From the NCBI RefSeq assembly GCF_006385175.1, contig NZ_VFIY01000004.1:310001-374000 (forward strand): 64,000 nt of DNA, given 5' to 3'. The first letter of the stretch is position 1; each line of letters opens with the position of its first letter. Made by a program: the position numbers and the translations under genes. A model generated the notes under the pieces. That model worked only from the letters and a program-made list of their open reading frames with translations. It made no database searches and was not told where the DNA came from. Origin of the DNA: Emcibacter nanhaiensis. Lineage in GTDB: Bacteria; Pseudomonadota; Alphaproteobacteria; Sphingomonadales; Emcibacteraceae. This document shows, piece by piece, positions 53,724 through 56,869 of this stretch.

Positions 53724-54520
53724 GTTCAGAGACCAAAAAAATCGCCACCCCAATTGATTCCGCGACCGTCATTCTGGTGCGTGATGGTTATGACGGGCTC
53801 GAAGTGCTGGTGGGGGAGCGTCATGGTGATATCAAGTTCGCCGGCGGAGCGCGGGTTTTTCCTGGCGGTAAAGTGGATCCGCTCGACAAAAAGGCCGAGC
53901 TTGAATGGGCCGGGGAAACTGAAGAGAAGTTACCCGAACAGTTCCGCGGCCTGCGGTTTACCGCTATTCGCGAAGTCTTTGAAGAAACCGGCCTGATCAT
54001 TGCGAAAAAGAACGGATATTCGCTTACCGAAGATCAGCGTGCGGCAATAGACAGGGAGTATCGTGACCGGGTGCATTATCAGGGTATGGGCCTGCTGGAT
54101 TTTATGAAGGAGAATGGCCTGGGCCCTGATCTGGAGGCCTGTGTGCCGTTTGCCCACTGGATCACGCCTGTTGCCCGACCCAAGCGGTTTGACACGCGCT
54201 TTTTTGTTTGTGAAGCGCCGGAGGGGCAGGTTGCCAAGGCGGACGGCCAGGAAATCATCGACGTGATCTGGGCGACCCCGACCAGGATTATCGAGGAGGC
54301 GGACGGGACTCTGATGTTCCCGACACTCATGAATTTGAAAAAGATTGCAGAATTCGGTTCAGTCAGGGAACTGATGGAAGATACGGCAGGACGGGAAATT
54401 GTCACAGTATTGCCGGAAATCAGGAAAAATGAGGCGGGGGAAGTCAGAATCGTTGCCGAGGAGGCAGGATATGGTTCTGTGGATCAAAATAGCGTTCATC
54501 CCGGTATTTCAAAGGATTAG
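53720..54520 (+). CDS. NUDIX hydrolase, NUDT19/RP2-like
   Basis: 266 aa. The Nudix helix REVFEETGL (residues 84-92) supplies the catalytic Glu residues, but its GG (G49-G50 of VFPGGKVDP) is ~34 residues before Arg84 instead of 14, so about 20 extra residues split the Nudix box, as in the NUDT19 (peroxisomal CoA diphosphatase) group. Substrate could be CoA or acyl-CoA derivatives; not proven. Starts on an ATGA overlap with dnaE and is likely cotranscribed. Confidence 0.85.
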   Translation: MSSETKKIATPIDSATVILVRDGYDGLEVLVGERHGDIKFAGGARVFPGGKVDPLDKKAELEWAGETEEKLPEQFRGLRFTAIREVFEETGLIIAKKNGYSLTEDQRAAIDREYRDRVHYQGMGLLDFMKENGLGPDLEACVPFAHWITPVARPKRFDTRFFVCEAPEGQVAKADGQEIIDVIWATPTRIIEEADGTLMFPTLMNLKKIAEFGSVRELMEDTAGREIVTVLPEIRKNEAGEVRIVAEEAGYGSVDQNSVHPGISKD

Positions 54521-54761
54521 GGGAATAACCCGACCGGTCCTTCTGCGACTGAAAATAGCCGGTGTCAGATTTCTTTACAGTGCATGGAATATTAAAAGAA
54601 CCTAAAGAGTATATTAAGTCATTGATAAATAATGATTTATTGTAAGAAAAGCGGAAAAGTGGGGGGATATTTCTGGTTTTAGGTGTCGATATTTTTTACA
54701 CAATTGCATGTGATGTCAGGGCGGATATTGTTAACTTGTTGCAATTAAAGGAAAAAATAAA
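54521..54761 (+). other. A+T-rich region upstream of the PEP-CTERM gene, possible activator sites
   Basis: No credible gene in this part of a 385-bp gap. It contains ATAAAT-AATG-ATTTAT (54625-54640), about 150-165 bp upstream of the predicted sigma-54 start, and a wider AATTGCA (54702-54708) / TGCAATT (54740-54746) inverted pair. Positions suit enhancer sites for a sigma-54 activator, but this is inference. No terminator for the dnaE/NUDIX unit is evident. Confidence 0.45.
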
Positions 54762-54779
54762 TTGGCACGCTACTTGCTT
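54762..54779 (+). promoter_or_regulatory. Sigma-54 promoter of the PEP-CTERM gene
   Basis: TTGGCACG-CTAC-TTGCTT is an exact match to the sigma-54 consensus TGGCACG-N4-TTGCW. GG (54764-54765) and GC (54776-54777) are 10 bp apart. Predicted transcription start near 54789, giving a ~117-nt leader before the GTG codon. Confidence 0.85.
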
Positions 54780-54905
54780 ATAAAGATACCGTTATCAGAT
54801 GATGTGGTACGAGCCACGAACGAGTAGTTGAGTACTTATAGATTTTTAATTTTCCATGTATGGTTGCGTTACGCTGCACTCATACGAACATCACAGGAGG
54901 TTATT

Positions 54906-55709
54906 GTGAAAAGCAATAAGATAATTTCCCTTATCACTGGCGCTATCGCAAGTGTTGTGGTTATGGGTTCAGCTCATGCTGGAACCATGATTACTGAATG
55001 GAAGCTGACAGCCGATGCAGCCTTTCAGGATGAAACTGGTGAACCGCTTGCGGATCTCATTAACAACGGCGACTATATTTCCTGGGGCCTTGAAGGCGGA
55101 AATTACAGTCATCTGGTCATTGGTGACCAGAGCGGTTACGACGGTACAACCCCGGCTGCCAACGCCAACGGTCACACCGAAGTAAACGGCATCATGACCA
55201 ACGGTGCTTTTGAAGATGCAGCCACCCTGACACACGTGAACAACGTGATCGCGTACAATACTTCGCTGACCAGCGTGACCATCCAGGATACCATCAGCCT
55301 TGAAGCTGTTAGCCCGGCTGGTTTCTCCCTGGGTCCGATCGTGTTCCCGCTGTTCATCGAGTTCCAGGAAACTCCGAACACTGAAGGCACTTGTGTTGAT
55401 GACTCTATCAGCGTGTGTGACGATATCTTCGTACTGGTAAACCCGGAAAACCTGTCCTTCAGCTTCGTTGAAGACGGATACCTCTATACCGTTACTCTGG
55501 ACCTGGGTGACACATCCTTCCTGGATGATGATGCCTGTGCCCTTGCTGGTGCCGAATCAGGTTGTCAGGGCTTCCTGACCGAAGAAAATACCTTTACAAC
55601 TCTCTACACCTCAGTGGCCATCACTGCGGAAGAAGTTTCCGAGCCTGCCATGCTGGGTCTGCTCGGCCTGGGTCTGGTCTTCGCCGGCCTGCGTCGCCGC
55701 AAAGCCTGA
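54906..55709 (+). CDS. THxN-type PEP-CTERM secreted protein
   Basis: About 267 aa. I start at the GTG at 54906, which follows AGGAGG by 5 nt and puts the signal peptide (KSNKIISLITGAIASVVVMGSAHA) at the N-terminus. An ATG at 54828 would bury it behind 26 unlikely residues. The mature part is Asp/Thr-rich with four Cys and carries THVN (residues 109-112), the mark of the THxN family. The C-terminus is an exosortase sorting signal: SEPAMLGLLGLGLVFAGLRRRKA (residues 245-267), with Ser for the first Pro of PEP. It should be exported and processed by an exosortase encoded elsewhere. Family members are linked to extracellular matrix; this protein's role is unknown. Confidence 0.88.
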   Translation: MKSNKIISLITGAIASVVVMGSAHAGTMITEWKLTADAAFQDETGEPLADLINNGDYISWGLEGGNYSHLVIGDQSGYDGTTPAANANGHTEVNGIMTNGAFEDAATLTHVNNVIAYNTSLTSVTIQDTISLEAVSPAGFSLGPIVFPLFIEFQETPNTEGTCVDDSISVCDDIFVLVNPENLSFSFVEDGYLYTVTLDLGDTSFLDDDACALAGAESGCQGFLTEENTFTTLYTSVAITAEEVSEPAMLGLLGLGLVFAGLRRRKA

Positions 55710-55766
55710 GGCTTGAGACGAAACTCCTCCAGTTTGATAAGTAGACCGGAATGAGAAAAGAACAAA

Positions 55767-55797
55767 CGTGAGCGGTTATTATAGATAGCCGCTCACG
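55767..55797. other. Long hairpin downstream of the PEP-CTERM gene
   Basis: A 9-bp perfect stem, CGTGAGCGG / CCGCTCACG, extended inward by about four A/T and G-U pairs, with a 5-nt loop. Lies 58 bp past the PEP-CTERM stop, just upstream of a canonical terminator. Confidence 0.6.
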
Positions 55798-55808
55798 CTT
55801 TGATTCAG

Positions 55809-55846
55809 GCCGTTGCTTTCCAAAAGCGACGGCTTTTTATTTTTTC
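55809..55846 (+). terminator. Terminator of the PEP-CTERM gene
   Basis: A 10-bp stem, GCCGTTGCTT / AAGCGACGGC (one G-U pair), followed by TTTTTATTTTTTC. It separates the gene from the rpsB promoter. Confidence 0.88.
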
Positions 55847-55878
55847 TGTATTATTGGCGGAAATTGGCGATTTATCCC

Positions 55879-55907
55879 TTGCCTTTTGTCTGAAAACGTC
55901 GTAATAC
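55879..55907 (+). promoter_or_regulatory. Sigma-70 promoter of rpsB-tsf
   Basis: TTGCCT (55879-55884), 17-bp spacer, TAATAC (55902-55907). The predicted start, near 55914, gives a ~107-nt leader to the rpsB ATG. Confidence 0.75.
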
Positions 55908-55969
55908 GCGCCTACTTCACACACGGGTGTAGAAGTTTGCCTCCTACATATTGAGGCCGACTTTCCGGT

Positions 55970-55981
55970 GTCTCTAGAGAC
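55970..55981 (+). promoter_or_regulatory. Palindrome in the rpsB leader
   Basis: A perfect GTCTCTAGAGAC palindrome lies 39 nt upstream of the rpsB start within the predicted leader. It could be part of an S2 autoregulatory RNA or a DNA site; the family-specific rpsB leader motif cannot be verified by eye. Confidence 0.4.
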
Positions 55982-56020
55982 CAAAGCCCGTGGAGGATTA
56001 ACCGGAAAAGGAGAAAAGAC

Positions 56021-56869
56021 ATGGCACTGCCTAGCTTTACCATGCGTCAGCTTTTGGAAGCTGGTGTACATTTTGGCCACCAGGCCCACCGTTGGAACCC
56101 CCGTATGGGCGATTACATCTTCGGTGTTCGTAACAAAATTCATATTCTTAACCTGTCCATTACCGTACCGCTTCTGCATCGCGCTATGGAACAGGTTCGT
56201 GACGTAACCGCATCCGGCGGCCGCGTATTGTTTGTCGGCACCAAACGCCAGGCTTCCGGCCCGATCGCCGAAGCTGCCAAGCGTTGCGGTCAGTATTATG
56301 TGAACCACCGCTGGCTCGGTGGCATGCTGACCAACTGGCAGACTGTTTCAAACTCCATCAAGCGTCTCAAAGAGCTGGAAGACCTCCTGAGCCAGGAACA
56401 TTCCGGTCTGACCAAAAAAGAAATCCTGCAGATGACACGTGAGCGGGATAAACTGGAGCGCTCTCTCGGTGGTATTAAAGACATGGGCGGTCTGCCGAAT
56501 GTCATCTTTGTGATCGATACCAACAAGGAAGAACTGGCCATCCAGGAAGCCAGGAAACTGGGTATTCCGGTTGTCGGCATTCTGGATACCAACAGCAACC
56601 CGGAAGGTGTTGATTTCCCGGTACCGGGTAACGATGACGCAACACGTGCGATCCAGCTGTATTGTGATCTGATTGCGGATTCTGTTCTGGAAGGTATCCA
56701 GCAGGAACTGTCAGAGCAGGGTGTCGACCTCGGCGCCGAAGAGGCTCCGGTGGAGCCGGCCCTGGAAGCTGAAGCCGAAGAGGCTCCGGCAGAAGCTGCT
56801 GCTGCAGAAGAAGCTCCCGCTGTGGAAGCACCGGCTGAAGAAGCTCCTGCTGAAGAAAAAGCGTCTTAA
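56021..56869 (+). CDS. rpsB: 30S ribosomal protein S2 with acidic C-terminal tail
   Basis: 282 aa. Core S2 (about 1-230) starts [35 protein letters not shown] and contains [20 protein letters not shown] and [19 protein letters not shown]. After about residue 235 there is a ~47-residue Ala/Glu/Pro tail with repeated EEAPAEE units, longer and more acidic than in E. coli. First gene of rpsB-tsf, with its own promoter, AAAAGGAGAA ribosome site and leader. Confidence 0.97.

Follow-up and report, generated by a model that had tools for sequence, protein, structure and literature searches.

The THxN family PEP-CTERM gene of Emcibacter nanhaiensis described here is, with high probability, a member of a PrsK/PrsR/RpoN-controlled PEP-CTERM regulon, and its product would be sorted by an exosortase. 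It lies at positions 54906..55709 (+) of the window, i.e., the whole 64-kb stretch of DNA that was analysed (C4:310001-374000 of the 3.96-Mb genome). Profile searches and a structural model further identify the THxN domain as a homologue of the domain that binds C-terminal peptides in the RTX adhesins MpAFP and FrhA. Floc- and biofilm-forming bacteria have many PEP-CTERM proteins, whose function is mostly obscure; the tie to a structurally solved peptide-binding adhesin domain provides one of these families with a concrete, testable function.

Results

The THxN Gene and Its Transcription Unit

The gene starts with GTG and encodes a protein of 267 amino acids with a signal peptide-like N-terminus. 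Residues 11-266 match the THxN family model NF038125 with 193.7 bits (cut-off 85), and the C-terminus scores over the cut-offs of both tail models, TIGR02595 (22.1 bits, cut-off 16) and PF07589 (24.1 bits, cut-off 20.7), in agreement with the initial annotation, which had described a secreted protein with a THVN motif and a C-terminal exosortase signal. The THVN motif (residues 109-112) is encoded at 55230..55241 (+) and the PEP-CTERM tail, VSEPAMLGLLGLGLVFAGLRRRK, at 55635..55703 (+).

Upstream of the gene, TGGCACGCTACTTGCT at 54763..54778 (+) matches the sigma-54 -24/-12 consensus, with GG at 54764-54765, GC at 54776-54777 and ten bases between them, just as had been claimed. From the -12 position we predict a transcription start at about 54789, consistent with the start proposed earlier, and a 5' untranslated leader of ~117 nt (54789..54905, +) preceding the coding sequence, with a Shine-Dalgarno sequence, AGGAGG, read directly at 54895..54900 (+). 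An Rfam scan of 54500-56100 gave no RNA switch in the leader, the sole match being the rpsB leader RNA (RF01815) downstream at 55918-56020, which scores 52 bits (gathering threshold 40) and precedes the gene for ribosomal protein S2. On the 3' side of the THxN gene, a terminator-like scan found a hairpin of 14 pairs at 55767..55797 (+) and a second one of 13 pairs at 55807..55835 (+), the latter followed by the T run TTTATTTTTT. Because of these two terminator-like hairpins, the gene probably forms a single-gene (monocistronic) unit. It is flanked by a NUDIX-like gene on one side and rpsB on the other, both named from their translations and the second supported by the leader match.

The Exosortase System and Its Regulon in the Genome

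The gene had been called solitary, which holds inside the window and fails for the genome as a whole, where 21 PEP-CTERM tails score over cut-off. The promoter type is likewise shared, as the sigma-54 regulon proposed earlier had implied: a strong -24/-12 site is found within ~130 bp upstream of the start in 16 of these 21 genes, and the window gene is thus not alone. L002 and L017, which have no strong site of their own, are located directly behind the PEP-CTERM genes L010 and L014, respectively, each of which has one, and the PEP-CTERM gene L018 has a degenerate -24/-12 site.

The initial annotation had named the lack of an exosortase in the genome as evidence against its proposal; exosortase, prsK and prsR are all present. 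The exosortase is of type A (TIGR03109, 303.7 bits, cut-off 208), and the regulators PrsK (697.5 bits, cut-off 300), PrsR (711.1 bits, cut-off 502.6) and PrsT (672 bits, cut-off 312.2) are encoded together with a single RpoN; we infer that PrsR and RpoN drive the window gene as part of the sigma-54 regulon. The prsT, prsR, prsK and epsB2 genes stand side by side at C14:130336-138064. The exosortase gene is part of a complete XrtA polysaccharide locus at C18:78503-87968 and beyond, which also encodes FemAB, ATPase, outer-membrane, tyrosine kinase, chain-length and export proteins, each over its cut-off.

A composite pattern of box and promoter, TTTACA-N48-78-GGCAY-N6-TGC, occurs at 15 sites in the genome compared with 2 in the control, and a stricter form of it is present in 29 of the 32 family genomes. 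One composite site (C18:566527-566612, L066/L089) precedes a gene for a protein ending in TPEIASLMLIGLASVVVGTRLRKKA, on which the PEP-CTERM models are silent. This gene is likely to be an extra regulon member, found because of its PrsR box and RpoN site and not by a tail model. Among the composite hits that do not precede a PEP-CTERM gene, L087 has a good site and lies ahead of the gene for an unnamed protein of 161 aa, L078 and L088 lie inside coding sequence and look like chance matches, and L082 lacks a good -24/-12 site.

Strong -24/-12 sites were also seen before other kinds of gene. L056 (G000:C6:134881-134896, -) precedes the gene of a 359-aa protein whose N-terminus is signal-like and which contains acidic DDNSDDDGxDNDGTIDNS repeats. 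A consensus site, L044 (G000:C4:282808-282823, -), lies before a flagellin-like gene, and RpoN, judging from such sites, seems to serve flagella besides PEP-CTERM genes in this genome.

Relationship of the THxN Domain to RTX Adhesins

Peptide patterns retrieved no close relatives of the window protein from the named genome collection, and relatives were then sought with family-model searches. In the resulting alignment of 17 THxN proteins, the THVN motif is conserved, with H110 invariant and N112 nearly invariant, and THYN is found at the aligned place in MpAFP, an adhesin from Marinomonas. The alignment was used to build an AlphaFold2 model (mean pLDDT 80.6). A search of the PDB with the THxN profile (hmmsearch) matched the peptide-binding domains of MpAFP (E 1e-12) and FrhA (E 3e-12), and comparison of THxN with the peptide-binding domain by hhalign gave a probability of 97.4%. 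The model agreed with the profiles, giving a Foldseek match to the same domain with E 3e-6 and a VIA Z of 9.9 over 168 residues, with the next unrelated fold at 4.5. No Pfam family reached its cut-off with the MpAFP domain. The same domain obtained 71.2 bits with the THxN model and 76.1 bits with choice-of-anchor K (NF038131).

The domain of the MpAFP type binds C-terminal tripeptides, with -Tyr-Thr-Asp as the best (PMC12077191, PMC10865825). The function of the window protein, given as unknown in the initial annotation, hence acquires a lead from homology, although what the protein does is still only suggested by it. As an exported beta-sandwich related to this domain, the protein would most likely have a ligand-binding (adhesin-like) role, and we put the chance that it is a small, ligand-binding matrix protein of adhesin type at about even. 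The ligand specificity itself is not transferable, since the two domains superpose with 4.0 A rmsd and share only 16-18% identity. The same low identity, together with conserved cysteines of the THxN proteins that are missing from the MpAFP domain, leaves it plausible, if not favoured, that the THxN and RTX domains have a common ancestor and both form a beta-sandwich, but that THxN proteins serve as passive matrix fillers that bind no peptide. Against such a filler stand the reciprocal matches of profile and MpAFP domain and a fold match clearly above unrelated folds, as well as the residues kept at aligned places in both domains (WG, S, THxN, ETPN, DI, F and Y), and we prefer the ligand-binding reading.

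The THxN model also matches two giant open frames, 6825 and 2414 aa long, that belong to other proteobacteria (L134 and L135, in genomes G247 and G173), where the THxN-like region is probably the same domain on a different kind of anchor.

An IHF-like Element at a Fixed Position in Many Sister Promoters

Between the promoter and the boxes described below, TAACTTGTTGCAA at 54732..54744 (+) starts 31 nt before the -24 element and differs at two positions from YAANNNNTTGATW, which we take to be the IHF consensus. The copy is weak by this measure; its position fits the populated -32..-30 class of sister promoters. A perfect element 32-30 nt before the TGG was found in 12 of 74 promoters, compared with 0.3 in shuffles, and nearly all perfect matches share one orientation. 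With at most one mismatch allowed, the element is present at -32..-30 in 20 of the 58 family promoters as opposed to 2/348 at other positions. THxN promoters from other classes of the phylum carry it as well, L140 in perfect form at -31. When the E. nanhaiensis genome is taken alone, it accompanies 6/12 PEP and 2/14 other RpoN promoters (p 0.09), an enrichment that is only suggestive. The two mismatches in the window gene's copy would agree with mere A/T-rich DNA, or with a site for another protein, in place of IHF. The preference for one position and one orientation, and the perfect copy upstream of a THxN gene from another class, make this rather unlikely for the element as a whole, and we continue to regard it as a candidate IHF site. 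Among the papers searched, three mention both PEP-CTERM and IHF, each term one to three times, and none was found to deal with the two together, which is no proof of novelty.

Two further observations concern the same spacer. A second element, TTTCYGCCRTTTT, starts 21-19 nt before the TGG, just upstream of the -24 site, in ~9 of the 74 PrsR-box promoters, mostly in those without the IHF-like element (L006, L146, L153, L165, L166, L171, L174, L175 and L176). In addition, L068 (G000:C18:755744-755759, -) is a strong -24/-12 site in front of a gene for an HlyD-like membrane fusion protein; it has a perfect IHF consensus at -30 and adjoins an NtrC-like regulator gene at C18:755916.

PrsR Boxes and Their Spacing from the Promoter

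Two PrsR boxes upstream of the window gene had been overlooked in the initial annotation. Such boxes correspond to motif 1 of Haft et al. (2006), which ends in TTTACA, is sometimes repeated and is separated from a sigma-54 motif 2 by a spacer of 62.8 +/- 10.6 nt (PMC1569441). The distal box, TGTCAGATTTCTTTACA at 54563..54579 (+), lies 183 nt before the -24 element with a PWM score of 26.2, and the proximal box, TGTCGATATTTTTTACA at 54684..54700 (+), lies 62 nt before it with a score of 22.8. The PWM was trained on boxes of other genomes only, and both scores exceed 20.7, the maximum reached when 5400 shuffled upstream regions were scored. The 64-kb window holds no other PrsR box. In a genome of another genus (G002), the syntenic THxN gene has the same neighbours (dnaE, NUDIX, THxN, rpsB, tsf, pyrH), and its upstream DNA aligns poorly except for the box TGTCGGAATTTATTACA and the -24/-12 site TGGCATGGTATTTGCT, both conserved with 63 nt between them.

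The gap of the proximal box falls within one of several discrete spacing classes. Across the 58 same-family promoters, the distances from box to -24 element cluster at 51-54, 62-65 (one at 67) and 74-75 nt; within the E. nanhaiensis genome they are 50-55, 62-65, 73, 85-86 and 96 nt, and in more distant genomes 62-64, 54 and 52 nt. The best spacing period, 10.9-11.4 bp, was reached by no null draw, a statistic that shared descent may still inflate even after the family promoters had been thinned for similarity. Head-to-head pairs of PrsR boxes are also frequent, with two 17-mers ~3 nt apart and their centres ~20 bp apart, as seen upstream of L008, L010, L012, L018, L019 and L089.

It is improbable that the RpoN promoter is real and another activator of the NtrC type, in place of PrsR, controls the window gene. 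The genome does encode ~10 further NtrC-like activators, and about half of its strong -24/-12 sites are associated with genes other than PEP-CTERM genes; however, both window boxes outscore every shuffle on the PWM for PEP-CTERM motif 1, the window contains no others, and motif 1 tracks PrsR across genomes in Haft et al. (PMC1569441). PrsR thus stays the preferred activator. That the -24/-12 site is a chance match, with the gene transcribed by other means, we reject as scarcely credible on sequence grounds: a consensus match on its own proves nothing, but the strict pattern TGGCAYR-N4-TTGCW, whose one occurrence in the window is this site, is found 26 times genome-wide (3.96 Mb) versus 2 for a reversed-pattern control and is thus well above chance, the composite pattern is enriched in the same way, the site is kept in the syntenic relative, its spacing from the PrsR box is fixed, and a simple scan finds no sigma-70-like site upstream of the gene on the coding strand.

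Discussion

We propose that the PrsK kinase would phosphorylate PrsR, which would then bind the TGTC-N7-TTTACA boxes and contact the RpoN-polymerase waiting at the -24/-12 site. The box would occupy a constant helical face, and an IHF-type bend may form between it and the promoter in many of the sister promoters. The window protein would be exported via Sec, and exosortase A would recognise its tail, composed of VSEP, a hydrophobic stretch and RRR, with the product being delivered to the surface or to the polysaccharide matrix that the XrtA locus produces. It is tempting to speculate, and we do so tentatively, that THxN PEP-CTERM proteins are small adhesins, sorted by the exosortase, which hold other surface proteins by their C-termini with the very domain used by giant RTX adhesins, and that PrsR promoters have three parts, namely the phased box, the RpoN site and, between them, an IHF bend.

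In kind, the system is an ordinary one; the PrsK/PrsR regulon and its cis-elements were described in 2006 (PMC1569441), and what is added here, a lead on function and some details of the promoters, is modest. The phased box and the positioned IHF-like element should nonetheless ease the finding of regulon promoters; one PEP-CTERM-like gene missed by the tail models has already been found.

Compared with the PEP-CTERM/EpsH (exosortase A) system of Haft et al., as far as the consulted part of its description goes (PMC1569441), XrtA, EpsB2, PrsK, PrsR and PrsT are common to both, and single-gene PEP-CTERM units, long upstream regions and a spacer near 63 nt are found in both alike. The box-to-promoter distances stepped by ~11 bp, and the IHF-like element at a fixed position in many sister promoters, appear from our sequence comparisons to be details beyond that description. 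A second point of reference is pepA of Aquincola tertiaricarbonis, an RpoN1-dependent PEP-CTERM gene with a mapped start, whose promoter (TGGCAC/CTGCTT) is of the same type as that of the window gene (PMC9850573). Aquincola PepA appears to belong to another PEP-CTERM family, the window protein reaching 17.9 bits on NF033554 (cut-off 80).

At the protein level, the peptide-binding domains of RTX adhesins (MpAFP/MpIBP, PDB 5k8g and 6x5v; FrhA, PDB 9y9w and 9ybq) share a common fold and the WG, THxN and ETPN residues with the predicted THxN domain. Choice-of-anchor K (NF038131) is placed in the same superfamily, the window protein scoring 18.1 bits on it, under the 30-bit cut-off. Whereas the known peptide-binding domains bud from split domains in giant RTX adhesins, the window protein is a single-domain protein of 267 aa and, in contrast to the RTX-adhesin domain, has an exosortase tail and extra cysteines.
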